Assembly (NCBI RefSeq): GCF_009189165.1
Contig: NZ_CP045118.1
Span: 4,278,001 to 4,342,000, forward strand
Direction of reading: 5' to 3'
DNA from: Pseudomonas sp. SCB32
GTDB lineage: Bacteria > Pseudomonadota > Gammaproteobacteria > Pseudomonadales > Pseudomonadaceae
DNA length: 64,000 bases
The notes below the pieces were generated by a model. It made no database searches. It was given only the letters and a program-made list of their open reading frames with translations, and was not told where the DNA came from. Of the stretch, positions 20,154 to 31,968 are shown in pieces. Position 1 is the first letter of the stretch; each line of letters opens with the position of its first letter. Made by a program: the position numbers and the translations under genes.

Positions 20154-20570
20154 CTATCCACCATTGGCCTCCATCACCGCGCCCTTGAACACATCGTCCA
20201 GCGGCACCTGGTAGCCGATGGCGAGGCGGTTGGTCTCGTTGGCCATGGCCACCACCGCCAGCAACTCACCGAGCATGGCATCGTCCATCCCCGCCTTGCG
20301 CGCTGCCGCTCCGTGGGAGCCGATGCAGTAGTTGCAGTTGTTGGTGACGCTCACGGCAACGTAGATCAGCTCCTTTACCAGCGGATCGAGCTGCCCCGGC
20401 CCCATCACCTCCTTGAGACTTTCCCAGGTGCGCTTGAGGGTCTGCGGATGATTGGCCAGGGCCATCCAGAAGTTGTTCACCCAGTCGATCTTGCGGGTCG
20501 CCATGATGTCGTCGTAGACGGCGCGGACTTCGGGGCTGGCGTCGGCGTATTCGATGAGCTGCAAGGACAT
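20154..20570 (-). CDS. carboxymuconolactone decarboxylase / AhpD-like protein
   Basis: 138 residues, all helical by appearance. The redox motif C-x2-C-x3-H of AhpD-type proteins is intact: Cys79, Cys82 and His86 in NNCNYCIGSH. Such proteins reduce peroxidase partners or act as alkylhydroperoxidase-like enzymes; the two-cysteine site argues for redox work rather than muconolactone decarboxylation. It is divergent from a periplasmic cyclase-family gene with a 116-bp spacer, and the two may share regulation. No peroxiredoxin partner is adjacent. Confidence 0.9.
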   Translation of the reverse strand: MSLQLIEYADASPEVRAVYDDIMATRKIDWVNNFWMALANHPQTLKRTWESLKEVMGPGQLDPLVKELIYVAVSVTNNCNYCIGSHGAAARKAGMDDAMLGELLAVVAMANETNRLAIGYQVPLDDVFKGAVMEANGG

Positions 20571-20686
20571 GGATGCTCCTGAACTGGTTTCGGAATAAGA
20601 AAAGCAGAATTCGGAATTGGAAGATGGGGTTGGCGCTGGAGAAAGATAAGGCGCGCCATCCCATCCCCGTCAAGGAATCAGACGCC

Positions 20687-21496
20687 ATGCAACGTTTGCC
20701 CGCCCTGCTCTTCGCCACCGCCCTGCTGCCCCTGCTCATCCAGCAACAGGTCCAGGCTGCCCAACCCGGCCTGTGGGATACCTACACCAGCCTCAGGCAG
20801 CACCAATGGGTCGACCTGACCCACGCCTTCGACGACGACATACCACACTGGAAAGGCTTCGAGTCCATGGGCCGCAAGACGCTCTACACCGTGGACAAGG
20901 ACGGTTTCCAGGTGGAGCTGTACAGCCACGTCGGCCAGTGGGGCACCCACGTCGATCCGCCCGTGCATTTCCACAAGGGCCTGCGCAGCGTCGACCAGTT
21001 GGAAGTGAAGGAACAGTTCCTGCCGCTGGTGGTGTTCGACATCTACCAGCAAGTGGCGAAGAACCCCGACTACGTTCTGACCCTGGCCGATGTGAAGGCC
21101 TGGGAAGCCAAGCACGGCCCGGTCCCCGAAGGCGCCTTCGCGGCGCTGCGCACCGACTGGTCCAAGCGTTGGCCGGACCAGGCGAAGATGCAGAACCAGG
21201 ACGGCAAGGGCGTGGCGCACTATCCGGGGTGGAGCAAGGAGGCACTGGTGTATCTCTACGAGACACGCAAGATCACCGCGTCCGGCCACGAGACCACCGA
21301 CACCGATCCGGGCATCGCCACCAGCAAGGACGACTACTCGCTGGAGTCGTACATCCTGGGCACCAACCACTATCAGATTGAGCTGCTCGCCAACCTCGAC
21401 CAGGTGCCGGAAGCCGGCGCGCTGGCGGTGGTGAGCTTCCCGAAGATCGCCCGGGGCACGGGCTTCCCGGCACGGGTGTTCGCCATTCTTCCGTGA
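20687..21496 (+). CDS. exported cyclase-family (kynurenine formamidase-like) hydrolase
   Basis: 269 residues from ATG 20687. The N-terminus is a signal peptide (MQRLPALLFATALLPLLI) cut near VQA-AQ. The metal-binding motif of the cyclase/kynurenine-formamidase superfamily, GTHVDPPVHF, lies at residues 86-95, with WVDLTHAFDDDIPHW upstream of it. Family members hydrolyse cyclic amides or N-formyl groups with a divalent metal. A periplasmic location excludes a simple cytoplasmic tryptophan-catabolic role. The upstream frame from 20573 lacks coding character. Followed by a REP pair and a bidirectional terminator. Confidence 0.85.
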   Translation: MQRLPALLFATALLPLLIQQQVQAAQPGLWDTYTSLRQHQWVDLTHAFDDDIPHWKGFESMGRKTLYTVDKDGFQVELYSHVGQWGTHVDPPVHFHKGLRSVDQLEVKEQFLPLVVFDIYQQVAKNPDYVLTLADVKAWEAKHGPVPEGAFAALRTDWSKRWPDQAKMQNQDGKGVAHYPGWSKEALVYLYETRKITASGHETTDTDPGIATSKDDYSLESYILGTNHYQIELLANLDQVPEAGALAVVSFPKIARGTGFPARVFAILP

Positions 21497-21534
21497 TCCC
21501 GCTCCTACAGGGGAACCCGGCGGAACGAAGACAA

Positions 21535-21596
21535 TCGCGGACGAAGTCCGCTCCTACGCGATCTCATGCATCCGTAGGAGCGGACTCCGTCCGCGA
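21535..21596. repeat. REP inverted pair (REPIN)
   Basis: Two 24-bp arms, 21535-21558 and 21573-21596, are reverse complements with one mismatch and a 14-bp spacer; the core is CGTAGGAGCGGACT. A further single half-unit (GCTCCTACAG) lies just upstream near 21501. This is the form of mobile REP pairs spread by RAYT transposases in Pseudomonas; no RAYT gene is in the window. Confidence 0.8.
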
Positions 21597-21633
21597 TAGA
21601 TCCCCGGCGGCTCCGAACCTGATCCGGCGCAAT

Positions 21634-21663
21634 AAAAAACGCGGCCCTAAGGCCGCGTTTTTT
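21634..21663. terminator. bidirectional intrinsic terminator
   Basis: CGCGGCC (21640-21646) and GGCCGCG (21651-21657) form a stem around CTAA, flanked by six A on the left and six T on the right, so it can stop both the plus-strand cyclase transcript and the minus-strand MMPL transcript. Confidence 0.9.
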
Positions 21664-21676
21664 GCTTGGGCGTCGA

Positions 21677-24058
21677 TCAGTGAACCAGGATCGAAGCCTT
21701 CTTCTGACGCACCTTCTCCGGATTGATCAGGAAGCGCGCCAGCGCCGGCAGCAGCCAGAGGGCGCCAAACATGTTCCAGAGGAGCATGAAGGTCAGCATC
21801 AGGCCCATGTCGGCCTGGAACTTGATCGCAGAGAAGATCCAGGTGGCGACGCCGATGGCCAGGCACAGACCGGTGAACAGTACCGCCTTGCCGGTGGACT
21901 TCAGGGTCTCGTAGTAGGCCTCCTGCAGGGACAGGCCCTGGCGCAGGAAGGACTCCAGGCGGGTGTAGATGTAGATGCCGTAGTCCACGCCGATGCCCAC
22001 GCCCAGTGCGATCACCGGCAGGGTCGCCACCTTCACGCCGATGCCGAGCATGGCCATCAGCGCGTTGCCCAGCACCGAGGTGAGGATCAGCGGCAACACG
22101 ATGCACAGGGTCGCGGCGAAGGAGCGGAAGGTGATCAGGCACATCGCCGCCACGCAGATGTACACGAGGATCAGGATGGTCAGTTCGGACTGCTTGATCA
22201 CCTCGTTGGTGGCCGCCTCGATACCGGCGTTACCGGCGGCGAGCTTGAACTTCAGGTCATCCTGGTTGTTGGCCTTGGCGAACTCCTGGACCACGCCGAC
22301 CGCGCGGTCGAGGGTCTCGGCCTTGTGGTCGTTGAGGAACACCAGCAGGGGCGCCAGCGAGCAGTTGCTGTTGAACAGACCTTCGGCGCGGCTGATGGAG
22401 TTGTTCAGCACGTCCTGGTTGCGCGACAGCGACTCCCACTTCAGGTTGCCTTCGTTCATGCCCTTGATCATCTGCTTGGAGACGGTGACCAGGGAGATGG
22501 CCGATTGCACGCCCTCGGTGTTTTCCAGGCGCCAGGCGAGTTCGTCGATGGCGGCCATGGTCTTGTGGGTGGAGCAGCCTTCGGAGGCGGATTCCACCAT
22601 CACCACCAGTACGTCGGAGCTGGTCGAGTAGTTGCGGATGATGAAGTCGTTGTCCAGGTTGTAGCGCGAGTCCGGACGAAGTTCCGGTGCGCCCTGGTCG
22701 AGGTCGCCGATCTTCAGGTGATGGCCTTCCCACATGCCGCCGGCGAACATCACCAGGGCGATGACCACGGAGATGGGCGCCACTTTCGGGCTGGCGAAGT
22801 TGGACAGCGCGCGCCAGAAGGGATGGTCACGTACCGCGTCTTCCTTGCTGCGCTGCACCGCCTTCTTGCTGATGCCAATGTAGGAGATGGCGACCGGCAG
22901 CAGGATCAGGTTGGTGAATACGATCACCGCCACGCCGACGGAGGCGCCGATGGCCAGCTCACGGATCACGCCGATATCGATCACCAGCAGGGTGATGAAG
23001 CCGACGGCGTCCGCGAGGATCGCGATCATGCCCGGCAGGAACAGCTGGCGGAAGGTACGGCGGGCGGCCAGCAGCGGGGTTTCCGCATCGCTGGACTGCA
23101 GGGCGATACCGTTGATCTTCTGCACGCCGTGGGAAATGCCGATGGCGAAGATCAGGAACGGCACCAACATCGAGTACGGGTCCAGCCCGAAGCCGATGGT
23201 GTGCAGCAGGCCGAGCTGCCAGATCACCGCCACCAGGGTGGTGGAGAGCACGGCGATGGTCGAGCGCACGCACTTGGTGAACCACAGCAGCAGCACCAGG
23301 GTGATCACGAAGCAGATGCCGAAGAAACCCACCACCAGCAGCAGGCCGTCGATCAGGTCGCCGACCTTCTTGGCGAAGCCGGTGATGTGCACCTTCACGT
23401 TAGGGTTCTGCAGCTGGTACTTGTCGCGGATCTTCTCTTCCAGCTCATGGGAGAACTGGCGGTAGTCCAGCTTCATTAGCCTGCCCTGGTCCTTCGGGTC
23501 CGGGTAGACCTCCAGCAGCGGCACGTCGACGATGCTCGACTTGAAGTTGTTCGCCACCAGGCGGCCGATCTGGCCGGACTTCAGCACGTTGTTGCGCAGC
23601 AGTTCCAGCGCCTTGGGCGAGCCGTCGTAGGTCTGCGGAATCACTTCGCCGCCGGCGAAGCCCTCCTCGGTCACCTCGGTCCAGCGCACGCTGGGGCTCC
23701 ACAGCGACTTCATGCCGGAGCGGTCGACGCCGGGAATGTAGAAGACCTCGTCATGGATCTTCTGCAGCGTCTCCATGTACTCCTTGGTGAAGATGTCGCC
23801 GTTCACCGCTTCCACCGAGATGCGCACGGTGTTGCCGAGGTTGGCCAGGTCGTTGCGGTGCTCCAGCATGTTCTGGATGAACGGGTGCTGCAGCGGGATC
23901 ATCTTCTCGAAGCTGGTGGACGGACGCACCTGGGTCGCCTGGTAACCGAGGAAGATGGTCACCAGCAGGCAGGCGATGATCACGAACGGCCGGTGGGTGA
24001 AGATGATGCGTTCCAGGAAAGTCGCCTTGTCCTGTTGATGCTTGCTGATAGCGTTCAT
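21677..24058 (-). CDS. MMPL/RND-superfamily permease
   Basis: 793 residues with the RND layout: one transmembrane helix at about 30-47, a large periplasmic loop, five more helices, a cytoplasmic linker, and the same pattern repeated in the C-terminal half (a helix at about 440, a second loop, and a bundle from about 625). ILADAVGFITLLVIDIGVI and GVGIGVDYGIYIYTRLESFL carry the acidic residues expected in the proton-relay helices. The family exports lipids or other hydrophobic compounds using the proton gradient. RBS GGGGAGTCGCA precedes the ATG. The Asp-box protein gene ends 14 bp upstream, so the two are co-transcribed. No membrane-fusion protein is adjacent. Confidence 0.92.
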   Translation of the reverse strand: MNAISKHQQDKATFLERIIFTHRPFVIIACLLVTIFLGYQATQVRPSTSFEKMIPLQHPFIQNMLEHRNDLANLGNTVRISVEAVNGDIFTKEYMETLQKIHDEVFYIPGVDRSGMKSLWSPSVRWTEVTEEGFAGGEVIPQTYDGSPKALELLRNNVLKSGQIGRLVANNFKSSIVDVPLLEVYPDPKDQGRLMKLDYRQFSHELEEKIRDKYQLQNPNVKVHITGFAKKVGDLIDGLLLVVGFFGICFVITLVLLLWFTKCVRSTIAVLSTTLVAVIWQLGLLHTIGFGLDPYSMLVPFLIFAIGISHGVQKINGIALQSSDAETPLLAARRTFRQLFLPGMIAILADAVGFITLLVIDIGVIRELAIGASVGVAVIVFTNLILLPVAISYIGISKKAVQRSKEDAVRDHPFWRALSNFASPKVAPISVVIALVMFAGGMWEGHHLKIGDLDQGAPELRPDSRYNLDNDFIIRNYSTSSDVLVVMVESASEGCSTHKTMAAIDELAWRLENTEGVQSAISLVTVSKQMIKGMNEGNLKWESLSRNQDVLNNSISRAEGLFNSNCSLAPLLVFLNDHKAETLDRAVGVVQEFAKANNQDDLKFKLAAGNAGIEAATNEVIKQSELTILILVYICVAAMCLITFRSFAATLCIVLPLILTSVLGNALMAMLGIGVKVATLPVIALGVGIGVDYGIYIYTRLESFLRQGLSLQEAYYETLKSTGKAVLFTGLCLAIGVATWIFSAIKFQADMGLMLTFMLLWNMFGALWLLPALARFLINPEKVRQKKASILVH

Positions 24059-24072
24059 TGCGACTCCCCGGC

Positions 24073-25155
24073 TTATTGTTGTTCTGTCAGCTCGGCGCCG
24101 GTCGCCGAAGCCAAGTGGATGCCGCCCTGGCCGACCAGCACCAGGTTGCCGTTGCCGGCCGCGCTCACACCCGCGAGGGACAGGCGGTCCGGACGGTTGA
24201 CGACGCTGAAGCTCGCGCCGTCGTCCTTGCTTTCGAGCACGCTGCCGCCATGGCCGACGATGACGATGGTGCCGTCATTCAACAGGCTGCCTTCGGAGAG
24301 GCCGAACTCCAGTTCGCCACCGTTGGCGGTGGGCAGGTTGACCTGCTTCCAGCTGGCGCCGAAGTCAGTGGTGCGGAACAGGTGGCCACGCAGGCCGTAG
24401 ACCAGCGCGGTGCCGGCCTGGCGGGTACCGACCACGCCGAACAGCGAGCCTTCGTATGGGCCTTCGAGTTTTTCCCAGGTCTGGCCCCAGTCCTTGGAAC
24501 GGAAGATGCTGCCGGCCTCACCGACCACCAGCAGGCCGGAATCCTTCACCGCCGCGATGGAGTTGAGGTGGTACTGGTCTTCGTTTTCCATACGGTCGCT
24601 GGCGTCTTCCCAGTGCTGGCCACCGTCGGTGGTTTCCAGCAGCGCGCCGTAGGCGCCCACGGCCATGCCGTGGTTGTCGTCCTGGAACCAGATGTCCAGC
24701 AGCGGCGCTTCGCGCTTGAGGTCTTCGAACTGGCGGGTCCAGGTGGTACCGCCATCGGTGGTGGCGAGGATCTGCGCGTCGTGGCCGACCGCCCAGCCCT
24801 TCTTGTCATTGAGGAAGAACACCGCGGTCAGCAGCTGGCGGGTCGGCACCTTGGCCTGGGTCCAGCTCTTGCCGGCGTCGTCGGAGTAAAGGATATGCCC
24901 GTGATCCCCCACCGCCACCAGGCGCTGGCCAGCCTGGGCGACACCCAGCAGCAGGCTGCTGGTGGCCTTGGCCGAAGGAATGGAGCTGGAGTCGCTGGCC
25001 GCTTCGGTTGCCGCAATGGCGCTCAAGGGAGCAACGGACAGCATCAGCAGGGAAAGTGCGCCGAGCAGGGAGATCGATTTGCGCGACATCGGGAAGGAGC
25101 GCGGAGTCTCCGACACGGACTGCTCGCTCGTAGTGCGCCACTGGGGCTCACGCAT
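24073..25155 (-). CDS. periplasmic Asp-box (YCF48/BNR-like) beta-propeller protein
   Basis: 360 residues. ATG 25155 has a good AGAGG ribosome site; the internal ATG 25089 directly before the hydrophobic segment SLLGALSLLMLSVAPLSA is an alternative start. After the signal peptide come repeated Asp-box motifs (SDDAGKSWT, TTDGGTTWT, TTDGGQHWE, SKDWGQTWE, TTDFGASWK), typical of the YCF48 / photosystem II assembly-factor-like propeller. Here it must be a binding or assembly factor for the neighbouring permease rather than anything photosynthetic. It lies 14 bp upstream of the MMPL gene. Confidence 0.9.
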   Translation of the reverse strand: MREPQWRTTSEQSVSETPRSFPMSRKSISLLGALSLLMLSVAPLSAIAATEAASDSSSIPSAKATSSLLLGVAQAGQRLVAVGDHGHILYSDDAGKSWTQAKVPTRQLLTAVFFLNDKKGWAVGHDAQILATTDGGTTWTRQFEDLKREAPLLDIWFQDDNHGMAVGAYGALLETTDGGQHWEDASDRMENEDQYHLNSIAAVKDSGLLVVGEAGSIFRSKDWGQTWEKLEGPYEGSLFGVVGTRQAGTALVYGLRGHLFRTTDFGASWKQVNLPTANGGELEFGLSEGSLLNDGTIVIVGHGGSVLESKDDGASFSVVNRPDRLSLAGVSAAGNGNLVLVGQGGIHLASATGAELTEQQ

Positions 25156-25204
25156 ATGCCTTTACCTCTTTGTTCTTATTGCAGGCGGTATCGAGTGTGG
25201 TCGC

Positions 25205-25234
25205 TATATAGCCAGCCTTTTCCGGGGCTGACAA
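25205..25234 (-). promoter_or_regulatory. sigma70-like promoter of the YCF48-MMPL operon
   Basis: On the minus strand TTGTCA (complement of 25229-25234) and TATATA (25205-25210) are spaced 18 bp, a good housekeeping promoter. It lies about 50 bp upstream of the YCF48-like start. An upstream terminator (25386-25413) separates this operon from the DUF1329 gene, so the two halves of the module have their own promoters. Confidence 0.55.
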
Positions 25235-25385
25235 TTAACGGCACGTTATCTTTTGTTAAGCAGCCGCGGCCTCACCCAAAAGGATGATTGCAGGTGGCCA
25301 CCAACGCTGTAAGGCACGCCCCAGGCGGCTTGCAACGGGGCGAGAGGTAACACTTTCGGTACGCCGCCGGTCGGAAGCCGGCAAG

Positions 25386-25413
25386 AAAAAGCCCGCCAGG
25401 AGGCGGGCCTTTT
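25386..25413 (-). terminator. intrinsic terminator after the DUF1329 gene
   Basis: GCCCGCC (25391-25397) pairs with GGCGGGC (25402-25408) around AGGA. The A run at 25386-25390 gives the trailing T run on the minus strand. It ends the DUF1302-DUF1329 transcript 17 bp past the stop codon. Confidence 0.85.
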
Positions 25414-25429
25414 CACGCATGGGACGAAC

Positions 25430-26797
25430 TCAGCGGGTACCGCGGCGACGCAACGCGGACGGGCTGAAATAGGAGTCGTCCGGTACGGCCTGGCTGAAGT
25501 CGATGGTGCTCGGCTCTTCGTTGTCCAGGTTCTGCACGTGGTAGCGACGGGCCTGAAGGTCGTGGAAGGTATCCAAAGCAGTCCAGGTGGTGGGCAGCTC
25601 GTAGTAGTTCTTCAGGTACGCCAGCGACACACGCCACAGCTCGCCACGGCCGTCGTACTGGTCGACCTCTGCGGCGCCCCAGCTGTCCTCGTCGAGGAAC
25701 AGCACGCGCTTGGAATAGATGTGGCGCGCGCCCGGCTTCAGGGTGCCCTCGACGACCCACACACGGTGCAGCTCATAACGGGTGTACTTCGGATTGAGGT
25801 GGCTGGGAGTCAGCAGATCCTTGTACTTAACGTCCGGGCTGGAAACCTTGTAGTTGTTGTACGGGATGTACATTTCCTTCTTGCCCACCAGCTTCCAGTC
25901 GTAGCGATCGGGCGAGCCGTTGAACATGTCGGTGTCGTCGGCGGTGCGCAGGCCATCGGCAGCGGCGATCGGGGTGTCGTAGGCCAGGTTCGGCGCACGG
26001 CGCACGCGGCGCTGGCCAGCGTTGTAGCCCCACGCCTGGCGCGGCTCCTTGACCTGGTCCAGGGTCTCGTGCACCAGTGCGGCGCCACCGGCCAGGCGCG
26101 CCGGGCTCTTGGTGAAGGACAGGTAATAGAACAGCAGGTTGTTCAGGTCAGTGAAGCTCTTGCCCTGGATGTAGTACTTGAACAGCGCCTCCTGCTGAGA
26201 GGTCACCAGCGAATAGTCGCCGTTGCGCTGCAGCGCCACTTCCGAGGCACGGCGTACGACGTAGGTGCCACGGTAGCGGGCGATGTGGTTCCACACCGCT
26301 TCCACGCCGCTCTGCGGGATCGGGAACGGGATGCCACCGAAGGCATCGACGAAGCCGTTGCCGCCCTCGACCAGCTTGGCGCTGGTGGCGTTCTTGAAGG
26401 TGTTGTCGTACACCCACTGCGGCGCCGAACCGCTGCGGCGGCTCGGGTACACCGGCATCTGGAAGGTCTCCGGATAGGTGTTGAACAGCGCCAGGGTGCC
26501 CGGGGTCAGGTTGGCCTTGTACTTATCCAGGTTGGCCTTGGTGATGGTGTACAGCGGCTTGTCCGAGGCGAACGGATCGATGTGGTGCTGACCCGGCTTG
26601 TAGCCGGCCGGCGCCTGGGTGATGCCACCGGTCCAGGCCGGGATGGTGCCGGCGGCGTTGCCGGCCTTCTCCGCGCCCAGCGGGGTCAGGGACGATTGCA
26701 GCTTGGCCGCATCCTGTGCGGAAACCGCGGCCAGGGCGCTGCCGGCGGACAGGGTCAGGGCCACCGCCGCGCCGATCAGGGTACGCATGTTGCGCAT
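25430..26797 (-). CDS. DUF1329 periplasmic/outer-membrane protein
   Basis: 455 residues starting MRNMRTLIGAAVALTLSAGS, with a signal peptide cut near LA-AVS. The mature protein matches the DUF1329 family, recognisable from LTPLGAEKAGNAAGTIPAWTG near its start and the Tyr/Trp-rich C-terminal half (RHIYSKRVLFLDEDSWGAA). The family has been related in fold to LolB/LolA-type lipoprotein carriers, which suggests handling of a hydrophobic molecule in the periplasm. It follows the DUF1302 barrel gene by 59 bp; the two families nearly always travel together. Confidence 0.93.
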   Translation of the reverse strand: MRNMRTLIGAAVALTLSAGSALAAVSAQDAAKLQSSLTPLGAEKAGNAAGTIPAWTGGITQAPAGYKPGQHHIDPFASDKPLYTITKANLDKYKANLTPGTLALFNTYPETFQMPVYPSRRSGSAPQWVYDNTFKNATSAKLVEGGNGFVDAFGGIPFPIPQSGVEAVWNHIARYRGTYVVRRASEVALQRNGDYSLVTSQQEALFKYYIQGKSFTDLNNLLFYYLSFTKSPARLAGGAALVHETLDQVKEPRQAWGYNAGQRRVRRAPNLAYDTPIAAADGLRTADDTDMFNGSPDRYDWKLVGKKEMYIPYNNYKVSSPDVKYKDLLTPSHLNPKYTRYELHRVWVVEGTLKPGARHIYSKRVLFLDEDSWGAAEVDQYDGRGELWRVSLAYLKNYYELPTTWTALDTFHDLQARRYHVQNLDNEEPSTIDFSQAVPDDSYFSPSALRRRGTR

Positions 26798-26856
26798 GGT
26801 GAATCTCCGTGAGGTTCACGCGCCGGGCGCGCTGGGCGCCCGGTGCGTGCTTGTCG

Positions 26857-28824
26857 TTAGAAGGAGTACTTGACGTTGAAGCCGACGTTGTCGCGGTCGC
26901 GGCTGGCGTTGTCCTTGCCTGCACCGTAGAACTCGGTGTATTGCAGTTCGGCTTCCAGGGCGTTCAGGTAGGTGGCCTTGACGCCCAGGGTGTAGGCCTG
27001 GCGGCCTTCGATGAAGTTGCCGGTCTGGTAGGAGTTGCCTTCGAAGTCGTCCTTGTAGACGGCGTACGGCGAGACGTTCACGCCGGCGAATACGTCGTTC
27101 CAGGTACCCGAGAGCAGCAGGGTGTAGCCGTAGGCGTCGCGGTTGACCTGATCGTCACGGTTGTAGCCGGAGATGTAGGCGCCGTTGGCGCGACCGGAGT
27201 AGTAGCGGGTCGTGCCATCGTAGGCGGTGTACTGCAGGCTGCTGGCGCGCAGGTGCTCGGAGGCCAGCTCCGCCACGCCCATCAGCGAGTCGAAGGACAA
27301 CTGCGGACCGAAGTTGTAGATGGTGCCCAGCGAGGTGTTGAAGGCCTCGACGCGATCATAGTTGTGGATCTGGTCGCGGATCGACACCGGACGGCCGCCG
27401 ATGTTCACGGTCTTGCCGCTGGCCAGCTGCGGCGCCTGGCTGAGCAGGTCGCCCAGCAGGTCGTTGGTGGTAGCGACACCGATCGGCAGGTTCGGGCGGT
27501 AGGCCAGCTCACCGAACACCGAGGCATCGGCCACGGTGGTGTTGAAGCTGACGCCGTACATGCGGATGTTCTCGACGTACTCGCGACGAGCGTTTACCTG
27601 GTTGGCGACGTCCACCGCCGCCGCGCCATTGACCAGGCCCAGCACCTGCCCGGCCATGGCGTTGCCGCTGCCGGCGGCGGCCATGAGTTGGTCATAGGAA
27701 GAGAAGCCGCCCAGGCCGGCCAGCTTGTCGATGTCCAGACCGGCGTAGCTGCTGTTCAGGTCGGCGTAGATGGTCGGCTCTTTGGCGTGGTAGTTGACGA
27801 AGTAGAAGCCAAACTCGGTGGAGTTCAGTTGTTCGGCAATGTAGTGGAAGGCCACGCCGAACTGGCCGTCGTTCTTGGCATTGAGGTCCTTGCCGACGCT
27901 GGCGACCTTGAACACGCCGTTGGAATCCAGGTACTGGGTACCCTGCAGGCCGCCAACGTGGGCCGCCGAGAGCTGCGGATAGAGGCTCTGGAACATCGGG
28001 TTGGCCAGTGCGCCGACGGTGGTGTAGGCAGTGTTGCCGCCATCGGCGAACAGGTCGGTCTCGGAGAAGAAGGTGCCGACCGGGTCGATGCGGGTTTCCT
28101 TCCAGTTCGACTGGTAGAAGGTGTCCATCGACAGGCTGTCGGTCAGGCCGATGTTGAAGCTCACGGCTTCCACCGGCATCAACACTTCCTTGAGCTCGGC
28201 ACCGGGCAGGCGGAACTTGGCGGCATCCACCGGGTTGGTGGTGTTCACGCCGCCACGGTAGAAGAGGCCCTCGCCCCAGTTGAACACCTGGCGACCCAGG
28301 CGCCCGGTCACCGGATGCTCGGCCACGTCCCAGTTGCCATAGACATAGGCATCGAGGATTTCGGCGCGGCTGCCGGCGGTATCGCGCGTGCCATCGGTGA
28401 AGCGGTCGTTGTTGGGGTAGCTCTGGCTCGGCTGCGGCGGCTGGTTGTTATCGTAGTAGTCGTTGCGCTTGTCCATGATCTGGGTGTCATAGAAAGCCGA
28501 ACCGCGCACGAACATGCCGTAGTTCTTGTAGGTCGCTTCCATGTCGGAAGTGATCTTGTACACCTCGGAAACCAGGCCGGTATCGAAGTTGCGGTTGCCG
28601 TCGTTGCCGTTGATGTCGTTGTTGGTCTTGTCCTGCCCCTGCACACGCCACAGGGTGCCGTACGAAACCGTGGTATCGATCGAGCCGCTCACCTCGTTGT
28701 CGAGGAAACTGAACTCGACGGCGGCGGCCTGCACCGACATCAGCAGCGGCAGGACACCTGCCAGAGCAAAACCCGCGCGAGCAGGTGCGAAACGCAAGAT
28801 GCTCTTGCGAACCGGGATTTCCAT
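26857..28824 (-). CDS. DUF1302 outer-membrane beta-barrel protein
   Basis: 655 residues starting MEIPVRKSILRFAPARAGFA, with a signal peptide ending near VQA-AAV. The mature sequence alternates polar and aromatic residues as in a large beta-barrel and ends NVGFNVKYSF, an outer-membrane insertion signal with a terminal Phe. The DUF1302 opening (FSFLDNEVSGSIDTTVSYG) and GRLGRQVFNWGEGLFYRGG are visible. It is the likely outer-membrane component of this module. RBS GGAGTGAG precedes the ATG. It is the first gene of a two-gene operon ending at the terminator 25386-25413. Confidence 0.93.
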   Translation of the reverse strand: MEIPVRKSILRFAPARAGFALAGVLPLLMSVQAAAVEFSFLDNEVSGSIDTTVSYGTLWRVQGQDKTNNDINGNDGNRNFDTGLVSEVYKITSDMEATYKNYGMFVRGSAFYDTQIMDKRNDYYDNNQPPQPSQSYPNNDRFTDGTRDTAGSRAEILDAYVYGNWDVAEHPVTGRLGRQVFNWGEGLFYRGGVNTTNPVDAAKFRLPGAELKEVLMPVEAVSFNIGLTDSLSMDTFYQSNWKETRIDPVGTFFSETDLFADGGNTAYTTVGALANPMFQSLYPQLSAAHVGGLQGTQYLDSNGVFKVASVGKDLNAKNDGQFGVAFHYIAEQLNSTEFGFYFVNYHAKEPTIYADLNSSYAGLDIDKLAGLGGFSSYDQLMAAAGSGNAMAGQVLGLVNGAAAVDVANQVNARREYVENIRMYGVSFNTTVADASVFGELAYRPNLPIGVATTNDLLGDLLSQAPQLASGKTVNIGGRPVSIRDQIHNYDRVEAFNTSLGTIYNFGPQLSFDSLMGVAELASEHLRASSLQYTAYDGTTRYYSGRANGAYISGYNRDDQVNRDAYGYTLLLSGTWNDVFAGVNVSPYAVYKDDFEGNSYQTGNFIEGRQAYTLGVKATYLNALEAELQYTEFYGAGKDNASRDRDNVGFNVKYSF

Positions 28825-29077
28825 TTGGACTCACTCCATGGACTGATCATTCTGTATGGGCGCCACCACTGCGGGCGGTTCGCCTTGTCAGCCGTTATTC
28901 CACGGCCTTGTTGTCGTCGATCTGAAGGAAACTCCCCCAAGGTGCTCGACACGCCCCCGGCCCAATGACCAGGCAAAGGCTAAGCGGGATCGGCCGGTGC
29001 AACGCCGATGCCAATTGCTGTAAACGCGCTGAATCTACTTACAAAATTTAAAGATATGGCCCGCTACTTTTTGTGAC

Positions 29078-29106
29078 TGGTCATTCACTGACCAAACCCA
29101 CTGACC
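29078..29106. promoter_or_regulatory. inverted and direct repeats upstream of the DUF1302 operon
   Basis: TGGTCA (29078-29083) and TGACCA (29089-29094) are perfect arms around TTCAC, and CACTGACC occurs twice (29086-29093 and 29099-29106) 13 bp apart. The site sits about 255 bp upstream of the DUF1302 start, next to the AT-rich stretch around 29035-29075 that probably holds its promoter. The 486-bp spacer 28825-29310 contains this site, the pepN terminator, and no ORF that I would call a gene. Confidence 0.4.
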
Positions 29107-29234
29107 GATTGCGCCATCAGTCTCTCGAAATGGCGCATTCCGCCCCTGGAAGGCCCGACGCAGACAGGGCGGCACCCTGGCGCCAATTCACTCCAGCGAT
29201 AAGTCGACCATCGTTTAATTTCGATAAGTAACAA

Positions 29235-29268
29235 AAAGGTGTTACCAGCCAATACTGGTAACACCTTT
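29235..29268 (-). terminator. strong intrinsic terminator of pepN
   Basis: AAAGGTGTTACCAG (29235-29248) and CTGGTAACACCTTT (29255-29268) are perfect 14-bp arms around CCAATA; on the minus strand the stem is followed by TTTTTG. A second stem, GGCGCTCC-GAAC-GGAGCGCC (29281-29300), lies between it and the pepN stop codon. Confidence 0.88.
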
Positions 29269-29310
29269 AGCGAGGCAGGTGGCGCTCCGAACGGAGCGCC
29301 GGAGGGAGGA

Positions 29311-31968
29311 TCAGGCGAGGCTCTTGCTTACAACCTCGAAGACATCGCTGGACAGTTCGCCGGAAGCCAGGATGCGCTCCAGCTCGGCACGCATCAGCGC
29401 CTGACGCCCAGGCGCGTACTTGCGCCAGCGGGTCAGCGGGGTCAGCAGGCGCGAAGCGATCTGCGGGTTGAGCGCGTTGAGGGTGATGATCTGGTCAGCG
29501 AGGAAACGGTAGCCGGCGCCGTCCGCGCGATGGAAGTTCACCGCGTTCTGGTTGGCGAAGGCGCCGATCAGGGCGCGGATCTTGTTCGGGTTCTTCAGGG
29601 TGAAGGCCGAATGCTTCATCAGCTCCTGCACGCGCTCCAGTCCACCCGGCAGCGTGCAGCCTGCCTGGACGCTGAACCACTGGTCCATCACCAGCGGGTC
29701 TTCCTTGAAGTAGTCGGCGAACATCGCCAGCGCTTCGCCCTTCTCGGTCTCGAACGACGAATTGACCAGCACGGCCAGCGCAGTCAGGCGCTCGGTCATG
29801 TTGTCGCAATCCTTGTACTGCTCCTGGCAGGCGGCCAGCACTTCGGCCTTGCCGCTCTGCATCAGGTAGGACAGGGAAATGTTCTGCAGGCTGCGGCGAG
29901 CGATGTGCGAGGCCTCCGCGACGTAGGCGGTCTCGCGGGACTGCTTGCGGTTGGCCTGGTAACGCTCCCACAGCGGCTCGTGCAGCGCCGCGCCGATCTG
30001 CTGGCGGGCGAACTCGCGGGCCGCGTGGATGGCCTCGACGTCAGCCACTTCGCTGATCTCGGTGAGGTACGCCTCGCTGGGCAGCGAAAGCATCTCGGCG
30101 ACCATGGCCTGGTCCAGACCGGTATCCAGCAGCAGGGTGCGGAAGGCAGTGATCAGGCGCGCATCGAGCACCAGCTTCTCGCCGCGCTGGTGCTGGCCGA
30201 TCAGCTCCTGCAGCACCTGCACGGACAGCTGCTGGCCGGCTTCCCAGCGGTTGAAGCCGTCCTCGTCGTGCTGCATAAGGAACATCAACTGGTCGCGATC
30301 GTACGGGAAGCTCAGCTTCACCGGCGCGGAGAAGCCACGCAGCAGCGACGGCAGCGGTTTCTCGGCGATGCCGACGAAGGTGAAGGATTGCTCGGCCTCG
30401 GTGACCTGCAGCACGCGATCGCTGCCGTGGGCGTGCTCCTCGCCCTGCAGACGCAGCGACAGGGCGTTGCCCAGCTTGTCGATCAGGCCCATCTGCACCG
30501 GGATGACGAAAGGCTGTTTCTCGCTCTGCCCCGGCGTGGCCGGGCAGCTCTGGCGGAAGGTCAGGGTGTAGCTCTGCGCCGCGGCGTCGAAGCGCTCCTC
30601 CACCGCCAGGCGCGGGGTGCCGGATTGGCTGTACCAGCGCTTGAACTGGGTCAGGTCGACGCCGTTGGCGTCTTCCATGGCCTTGACGAAGTCGTCGCAG
30701 GTCACGGCCTGGCCGTCATGGCGCTCGAAGTACAGGTCGGTGCCCTTGCGGAAGCCGTCGGCGCCCAGCAGGGTGTGGATCATGCGCACCACTTCCGAAC
30801 CCTTCTCGTAGACGGTCAGGGTGTAGAAGTTGGAAATCTCGATGAAGGAATCCGGGCGCACCGGGTGCGCCATGGGGCCGGCGTCCTCGGCGAACTGGTT
30901 GGTGCGCAGGAAGGCCACGTCCTCGACGCGCTTGACGGTGCGCGAGTTCATGTCGGCGGAGAACTCGCTGTCACGGAATACGGTGAAGCCTTCCTTGAGC
31001 GACAGCTGGAACCAGTCGCGGCAGGTCACGCGGTTGCCCGACCAGTTGTGGAAGTACTCGTGGGCGACCACGCCTTCGACACGCTGGTGCGCGGCGTCGG
31101 TAGCGGTCTCGGCCTTGGCCAGCACGCAGCTGGAGTTGAAGATGTTGAGGCCCTTGTTCTCCATGGCGCCCATGTTGAAGTCGTTGACCGCGACGATCAT
31201 GAAGATGTCCAGGTCGTACTCGCGGCCGTAGACCTTCTCGTCCCAGCGCATTGAGTTCTTCAGGCTGTCCATGGCGTGCTGGACCTTGTCGATGTTCTCC
31301 GGCTCGACGTAGATGCGCAGCGTCACGTCGCGCTCGCTCATCGTGTTGAACTGGTCTTCCACGCACCAGAGGTCACCGGCGACCAGGGCGAACAGGTAGG
31401 CCGGTTTCTTGAACGGGTCCTGCCAGGTCGCCCAGTGGCGACCACCCTCTTCCGAGCCGCTGGCCACCGGGTTGCCGTTGGACAGGAGCACAGGGTACTT
31501 GTGCTGCTCGGCCGACAGCGTGGTGGTGAAGCTGCTCATCACGTCCGGGCGGTCGAGGTAATAGGTGATCTTGCGGAAGCCTTCGGCCTCGCACTGGGTG
31601 CAGAACATCTTGCCGGACTTGTACAGGCCTTCCAGCGCGGTGTTGCTTTCCGGGTGGATGCGCACGGTGCTGTCGACGGTGAAGGTCTTGGCGGTCGGTT
31701 GCAGGGTCAGGTGGTTCTCGTCGAGCTGGTACTGGCCGGCTTCCAGGGCCTGGTCATCCAGCGCCACCGACAGCAACTCCAGCTGCTGGCCGTCGAGCAC
31801 CAGCGGCGGCAGGCCGTCGCCGCGCTCCGGATTGCGGCGCATCACCAGCTGGGCGTGGACCAGCGTGTGGTCCTCGTACAGCTCGAAGGTCAGGTTGGTC
31901 TCGTCGATCAGGTACTCAGGCGCCTGATAATCCTTGAGGTAGATGACTTTCGGTTGCTCGGTACGCAT
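29311..31968 (-). CDS. pepN: aminopeptidase N (M1 family)
   Basis: 885 residues, full length for a bacterial PepN. The substrate-binding GAMEN motif (FNMGAMENKGLNIF) is followed by the zinc motif HEYFH at residues 303-307 and the third ligand Glu326 in LKEGFTVFRDSEFS, the HExxH-x18-E pattern. The enzyme is a cytoplasmic zinc aminopeptidase that removes N-terminal residues from peptides. RBS AAGGGG lies upstream of ATG 31968. The gene is monocistronic, with a strong terminator downstream. Confidence 0.97.
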   Translation of the reverse strand: MRTEQPKVIYLKDYQAPEYLIDETNLTFELYEDHTLVHAQLVMRRNPERGDGLPPLVLDGQQLELLSVALDDQALEAGQYQLDENHLTLQPTAKTFTVDSTVRIHPESNTALEGLYKSGKMFCTQCEAEGFRKITYYLDRPDVMSSFTTTLSAEQHKYPVLLSNGNPVASGSEEGGRHWATWQDPFKKPAYLFALVAGDLWCVEDQFNTMSERDVTLRIYVEPENIDKVQHAMDSLKNSMRWDEKVYGREYDLDIFMIVAVNDFNMGAMENKGLNIFNSSCVLAKAETATDAAHQRVEGVVAHEYFHNWSGNRVTCRDWFQLSLKEGFTVFRDSEFSADMNSRTVKRVEDVAFLRTNQFAEDAGPMAHPVRPDSFIEISNFYTLTVYEKGSEVVRMIHTLLGADGFRKGTDLYFERHDGQAVTCDDFVKAMEDANGVDLTQFKRWYSQSGTPRLAVEERFDAAAQSYTLTFRQSCPATPGQSEKQPFVIPVQMGLIDKLGNALSLRLQGEEHAHGSDRVLQVTEAEQSFTFVGIAEKPLPSLLRGFSAPVKLSFPYDRDQLMFLMQHDEDGFNRWEAGQQLSVQVLQELIGQHQRGEKLVLDARLITAFRTLLLDTGLDQAMVAEMLSLPSEAYLTEISEVADVEAIHAAREFARQQIGAALHEPLWERYQANRKQSRETAYVAEASHIARRSLQNISLSYLMQSGKAEVLAACQEQYKDCDNMTERLTALAVLVNSSFETEKGEALAMFADYFKEDPLVMDQWFSVQAGCTLPGGLERVQELMKHSAFTLKNPNKIRALIGAFANQNAVNFHRADGAGYRFLADQIITLNALNPQIASRLLTPLTRWRKYAPGRQALMRAELERILASGELSSDVFEVVSKSLA

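Follow-up and report, generated by a model that had tools for sequence, protein, structure and literature searches.

An AmeABCD-type locus of Pseudomonas sp. SCB32 and a possible engine shared by several DUF1302-DUF1329 modules

Four neighbouring genes of Pseudomonas sp. SCB32 encode a DUF1302 barrel, a DUF1329 protein, a YCF48-like Asp-box protein and an MMPL permease. They are an ordinary example of a type already described, as the same four families have been published together in AmeABCD, in Betaproteobacteria and in P. putida. What is new here is that the two halves of the locus are separable, and this, together with the ratio of engines (MMPL-YCF48 pairs) to DUF1302-DUF1329 modules, suggests a shared engine. 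With moderate confidence, we favour an AmeABCD-type transport route for hydrophobic or fatty-acid-like molecules, in which the engine would be shared in trans by several DUF1302-DUF1329 modules. How very hydrophobic carbon sources and products move across the Gram-negative periplasm is poorly known. The window, hereafter, is the whole analysed stretch of 64,000 nucleotides (contig NZ_CP045118.1, positions 4,278,001 to 4,342,000).

The four genes and their products

All four genes are on the minus strand, and Pfam profiles confirmed the families proposed in the initial annotation. From upstream to downstream, they encode a DUF1302 outer-membrane barrel of AmeA type (26857–28824, 655 aa; PF06980, 1.5e-160), a periplasmic DUF1329 protein of AmeB type (25430–26797, 455 aa; DUF1329, 1e-165, and LolA_like, 3.7e-8), a periplasmic YCF48-like Asp-box protein of AmeC type (24073–25155, 360 aa; PSII_BNR, 1.2e-29) and an inner-membrane MMPL/HAE3-like RND permease of AmeD type (21677–24058, 793 aa; Pfam MMPL, E 1.3e-30). 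The YCF48 start is possibly at 25089 rather than 25155. Judged by eye, the N-termini of the YCF48-like, DUF1329 and DUF1302 proteins resemble signal peptides.

The genes likely form two operons, DUF1302-DUF1329 and YCF48-MMPL, because only 59 bp and 14 bp, respectively, separate the members of each pair. Each operon ends, on the minus strand, in an intrinsic terminator composed of a hairpin and a U-run, at 25385–25414 for the first (−27.9 kcal/mol, z −6.67) and at 21634–21663 for the second (−22.1 kcal/mol, z −5.09). Reading frames, gaps and hairpins thus agree with the arrangement first described, two adjacent operons with their own terminators. A simple terminator scan missed both hairpins, seemingly since their U-runs are base-paired as part of the stem. 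A promoter scan of 20500–30000 found no sigma-70-type promoter. Upstream of DUF1302 lies pepN (29311–31968), with its own terminator at 29235–29268; downstream of the permease, at 20154–21496, Pfam identified two genes, one of the cyclase family, which is convergent, and one of the CMD family. Among these three immediate neighbours Pfam identified no membrane-fusion or TolC-type gene, as had been claimed at the outset, and a tripartite HAE1 RND pump comprises both a membrane-fusion protein and a TolC-type channel. The cyclase-family and CMD-family genes adjoin the permease in only seven of 80 related loci (L023–L028, L030). Just 3' of the permease terminator (21537–21600) are palindromic repeats that, by eye, have a REP-type look.

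The best NCBIfam match of the permease was TIGR00921 (HAE3), with 153.6 bits against a model cut-off of 351.9. Scores for the HpnN models were 75.2 bits (TIGR03480, cut-off 751.85) and 29.1 bits (NF052374, cut-off 1100). HpnN is an MMPL permease like that of the window, but it has no such partners. BstABC, a lipid transport system as HpnN is, likewise has an MMPL permease and consists of inner-membrane, periplasmic and outer-membrane-associated parts, but BstB and BstC belong to other families. AupA/AupB was also considered as a relative and dropped; the terms RND, MMPL, HAE3 and DUF were not found in its paper. The closest permeases, by MMPL, are those of Pseudomonas sp. 30_B (99%) and of the P. 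nitroreducens group (96%), and the MMPL-YCF48 pair is strongly conserved (at least 82%) across the 80 related loci. At the presumed proton-relay sites the permease is asymmetric, with Asp692-Tyr693 in TM10 but Ser309-His310 in TM4; this Asp-Tyr/Ser-His pattern is kept in all 80 orthologues and in 5/5 sets of the window genome. The YCF48-like protein resembles the Ycf48 structures 2xbg and 5ojr at 2e-20.

For DUF1329, a LolA/LolB-type fold had been suggested initially, and the predicted structure bore this out: residues ~160–455 form a LolA/LolB-type half-barrel, preceded by an additional N-terminal part (~24–160). A fold search with the model ranked LolA3 first. Sequence searches of the PDB gave no convincing relative of either DUF1329 or DUF1302; one weak DUF1329 match (E 0.46) was LolA3, the very protein that topped the fold search.

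The DUF1302 protein ends in VKYSF, with a terminal Phe. Even its best AF2 model is of low quality (pLDDT 61.0 and pTM 0.57, against 36–44 for the four others), and its nearest solved folds were MOMP and AlgE (TMt 0.51–0.60), with FadL at 0.37–0.38. Because of the quality of the model, the match means no more than a porin-like barrel. Several orthologues are labelled glycine betaine transmethylase in databases. By gene order, PA3082 is probably the orthologue of the window DUF1302 gene. It is listed as glycine betaine transmethylase (gbt) in a table of PMC7775676. The apparent signal peptide, the barrel-like model and the aromatic C-terminus argue against a methyl-transfer enzyme.

Association of the four families and separability of the two halves

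The chromosome of the window genome (6.31 Mb) contains 12 DUF1329 matches (of which 11 are close to full length), 10 DUF1302 matches, and PSII_BNR matches at six loci. Five of these six loci are complete four-gene sets with an MMPL; those outside the window lie at about 2.811–2.818, 3.040–3.047, 3.223–3.230 and 3.874–3.880 Mb. At the sixth (L110:5463–7089; chromosome about 2829363–2830989), a short MMPL frame lies beside a YCF48-like frame. These two frames are ~12 kb from one of the complete sets (L109) and look like the remnant of another.

In 96 genomes of the class, the window genome included, a PSII_BNR match was found in 14 of 14 genomes with a strong DUF1302 match (E<1e-90, a cut chosen after the data were seen) versus 7 of the 82 others (Fisher 4.9e-12). 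At the default DUF1302 cut, the corresponding figures for the same genomes were 17/27 with DUF1302 and 4/69 without. A larger class sample, from which the window genome was excluded, comprised 38 genomes with strong DUF1302 that had not been selected via MMPL, and the search for AmeD-type MMPL covered these strong-DUF1302 genomes. It was present in 36 of the 38, in one case (G161) only as a piece at a contig end. DUF1302 lay within 6 kb of it in 35 of the 38, where roughly 1% would be expected per gene by a rough estimate. At most four DUF1302 candidates were scored per genome in this sample, and gene counts are therefore lower bounds. The three genomes without such linkage were G086, G134 and G210. 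G134 and G210, both fragmented and of one genus, lack AmeD-type MMPL despite having DUF1302. G086 has eight DUF1302 matches and a DUF1329-YCF48-MMPL trio without adjoining DUF1302; a second AmeD-type MMPL (C12) lies elsewhere in that genome, with no PSII_BNR match near it.

The association of the four families is far above chance. The initial annotation had proposed a single trans-envelope set, to be given up if the Asp-box/MMPL pair occurred with DUF1302/DUF1329 no more often than by chance; the 14/14 versus 7/82 distribution of PSII_BNR and the DUF1302-MMPL linkage in 35/38 genomes refute chance co-occurrence. The association is thus real, and the initial interpretation is partly supported. 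The set is not a closed unit, though: window-type DUF1329 and DUF1302 are both present in only 13 of the 80 related loci, and DUF1329 alone in one (L030), versus a YCF48 gene within 500 bp upstream of the MMPL gene in 80/80. The MMPL-YCF48 pair is therefore the constant part of the locus. pepN is visible in 56 of the 80 loci, and 42 of those 56 have neither DUF gene. A position beside pepN is not general, since in 14 loci neither pepN nor the DUF genes appear in 10 kb of upstream sequence; the other 10 end early at contig ends.

The two components were counted in 15 Pseudomonas genomes, namely the window genome and 14 hand-picked from the 80 (12 without and 2 with local DUF genes). As all 14 were reached through their MMPL, they are no test of the need for one. 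The 15 genomes hold 113 DUF1329 genes (scores above 180 only); for 35 of them an AmeD-type MMPL lies no more than 6 kb away, for 78 it is farther. Most of the unlinked genes adjoin a DUF1302. One of them, in P. citronellolis (C30), has an MMPL at a distance of 7.9 kb, and a less strict cut would count it as linked. The count excludes a 25.7-bit match at chromosome 1324568 (L012), a 24-bit match in P. mediterranea and a 116-bit fragment in P. jinjuensis. There are 51 AmeD-type MMPLs in the same genomes, defined by a cut of E 1e-60 in the 14 picked genomes and as five MMPLs in the window genome, the short frame of L110 being excluded; 16 of the 51 have no DUF1329 nearby.

Among individual genomes, the complete sequence of P. 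aeruginosa PA7 contains five DUF1329 genes but a single MMPL that passes the 1e-60 cut for the AmeD type. The ratio is two to one in P. rhodesiae and one to one in P. rubra, on different contigs in both. P. putida 31800 has four of each, two of each being unlinked; the picture of a single engine thus emerges most clearly only in PA7, P. rhodesiae and P. rubra. Dedicated sets are also common, since in the window genome every one of the five AmeD-type engines has a DUF1329 as neighbour.

Published relatives and the outer modules

The window locus has the same four families in the same order as AmeABCD of Castellaniella defragrans, described in 2018 as a tetrapartite system of the HAE3 lineage with DUF1302, DUF1329, YCF48/COG4447-like and HAE3/MMPL components (PMC6394551). 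The proteins are also of similar lengths (605/451/316/787 aa in AmeABCD, 655/455/360/793 aa in the window, in the order DUF1302, DUF1329, YCF48, permease). In contrast, AmeABCD is one cassette within a monoterpene island, whereas the window set lies downstream of pepN and is divided into two operons by a terminator; many relatives, moreover, retain only its MMPL-YCF48 half. It has been stated in print that every member of the AmeD lineage sits in a complete cassette (PMC6394551). This rule fails if window-type permeases belong to that lineage, AmeD-type being used here as a label and not as a placement on an AmeD tree.

The same four families form COG4447-COG1033-PF07044-DUF1302 operons in the AphR/AphS/AphT aromatic regulons of Betaproteobacteria (2019; PMC6449761); these differ from the window locus by their control from aromatic-catabolism regulators. 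In an anaerobic benzene culture, DUF1329, YCF48-related and MMPL genes were reported in a 'nanopod' cluster (PMC13101534), and the same article cites impaired growth on phenanthrene upon loss of a Delftia DUF1329 gene. A DUF1302 protein of Delftia was reported in the outer-membrane fraction.

That the window MMPL-YCF48 pair corresponds to PP_2018/2019 of P. putida is probable from the families, the gene order and, in P. putida 31800, the adjoining pepN. PP_2017 is presumably pepN in strain KT2440. PP_0765/0766 and PP_2018/2019 comprise the same four families, with distant locus tags for the two halves, and all four genes were needed on Tween 20, with contacts in AlphaFold co-folding (2024; PMC10866462). 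Compared with this split set, the window genome has a PP_0766-type module elsewhere and an additional DUF pair beside the engine.

In a DUF1329 tree, a PP_0766-type clade contains the window genome's copy (L103) and those of P. putida 31800, PA7 and other species, with at most one sampled copy per genome. In the window genome this module is at chromosome 5010099–5013484, beside genes for an acyl-CoA ligase and a MalT-like LuxR regulator, and the island ligase-DUF1302-DUF1329-LuxR is conserved in P. putida, P. rubra, P. rhodesiae, P. mediterranea and PA7. Judged by family, species and the gene neighbours in KT2440, it is probably the PP_0765/0766 island. In a proteome comparison of P. aeruginosa MPAO1, three proteins whose locus tags lie close together, a fatty acid-CoA ligase, a DUF1302 protein and a DUF1329 protein, were reported to shift in the same direction (PMC7603352).

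The tree was built by a quick method from 99 rows with hand-set labels (54 unlinked, 42 dedicated, 3 pepN-linked); L126 was labelled unlinked though an AmeD-type MMPL is ~2.2 kb away, and the correct totals are 53 unlinked and 43 dedicated. Linkage labels were clustered on it, with 13 changes versus 32.8 after shuffling, a difference partly due to near copies.

Most neighbourhoods of the other modules of the window genome are catabolic, with genes for aldehyde dehydrogenase, FAD/FMN oxidoreductases, thiolase, serine hydrolase, CoA-transferase and hydantoinase, and with LuxR, sigma-54, LysR or AraC-type regulators. Two are not clearly so: at L105 the neighbours encode phenylalanyl-tRNA synthetase and an MFS transporter, and at L108 a solitary DUF1329 gene lies close to one of HemN type. 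Several other features were observed near these modules. A tyrosine-phosphatase-family gene (PF13350) occurs at L107:5135–7045 and L111:14009–14959, by one unlinked pair and one complete set; that of L107 is fused to an autotransporter barrel. A 1085-aa ORF without Pfam match lies beside a DUF1302-DUF1329 module (L106:11111–14368). Finally, a weak DUF1329/LolA-like gene adjoins a different, HAE3-like MMPL at L114 (chromosome 1318000–1335000). This pairing recurs in several class genomes, with further loci at L132, L133, L135–L139, L143 and L144, and recalls an MMPL/LolA-like protein of Thalassolituus that was raised on long-chain alkane (PMC6304351).

A shared engine and its rivals

In the mechanism that we propose, the MMPL permease and its YCF48-like periplasmic partner would constitute an inner-membrane engine, presumably driven by protons. 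The LolA-type DUF1329 would ferry the molecule across the periplasmic space, with the engine at one end and the DUF1302 barrel, in the outer membrane, at the other; no TolC-type duct would be used. The engine would serve the adjoining DUF1302-DUF1329 pair and, in trans, distant ones such as the acyl-CoA-ligase-linked pair. We infer that the four proteins make contact, that the engine acts on distant modules in the window genome, and that the substrate is of a hydrophobic kind; gene linkage itself does not show physical contact or direction. The catabolic neighbours and the growth requirement tip the balance slightly towards import; the sole transport assay found in print, Nile Red with AmeABCD, favours export (PMC6394551). 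It may also be that unlinked modules work with a different MMPL, or without any.

A broader version of the proposal, to which we give just under an even chance, is that a conserved Pseudomonas MMPL-YCF48 pair, usually near pepN, powers interchangeable DUF1302-DUF1329 modules in trans, many of which would come with catabolic genes and a MalT-like LuxR regulator of their own. It would apply most cleanly to PA7, with one engine for five DUF1329 genes, and to P. rubra, with one of each, unlinked. TonB-ExbBD is a parallel, as one inner-membrane engine serves many outer-membrane clients; the likeness is one of logic, and no homology is claimed. One engine for many DUF1302-DUF1329 pairs was not found in the accessible parts of the open-licence literature on these families.

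The main competing explanation, rather unlikely in our view, is a closed, dedicated four-part exporter of toxic hydrophobic compounds, the unlinked DUF pairs having other roles or pumps. Families and gene order are those of AmeABCD, interpreted as an exporter by its authors: its deletion lowered monoterpene tolerance and increased Nile Red accumulation, and a transposon in ameB impaired monoterpene growth (PMC6394551). The DUF1329 gene beside every AmeD-type engine of the window genome also fits this explanation. However, most related MMPL-YCF48 pairs have no adjoining DUF pair, and PP_0765/0766 have a growth phenotype in common with the distant PP_2018/2019 (PMC10866462). Maintenance of envelope lipids, in which the engine would deliver a native lipid to the outer membrane by analogy with HpnN and hopanoids, is improbable. 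Such a maintenance role would agree with the weak similarity of the permease to HpnN, the strong conservation of the MMPL-YCF48 pair and the window set's lack of a clearly catabolic operon beside it, but other modules adjoin acyl-CoA ligase, aldehyde dehydrogenase, thiolase or CoA-transferase genes, and the published phenotypes, in the parts available, concern carbon sources.

Two further explanations are very improbable, both to the same degree. That DUF1302 and DUF1329 act as esterases or hydrolases, at the surface or in the periplasm, and take no part in transport was an earlier suspicion for PP_0765/0766 (according to PMC10866462), against which stand the LolA-type fold of DUF1329, the barrel-like DUF1302 model (of low confidence) and the absence of any catalytic family match in Pfam and NCBIfam. 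That the two operons are unrelated and neighbours by chance in this species group would account for the separate terminators and for the lack of the DUF pair in most related loci, but not for the four other complete sets of the window genome, nor for DUF1302 within 6 kb of AmeD-type MMPL in most strong-DUF1302 genomes.

If the shared-engine reading is true, the database name glycine betaine transmethylase would be corrected for the DUF1302 barrel. New substrates would, under its broader version, be gained by an extra outer module, with no new pump. Should one engine serve many modules, the DUF1302/DUF1329 pairs of Pseudomonas would become a readable list of substrate-specific routes, and a single MMPL-YCF48 deletion would test all of them. 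Up to 18 or 19 DUF1329 matches were found in one Pseudomonas genome.
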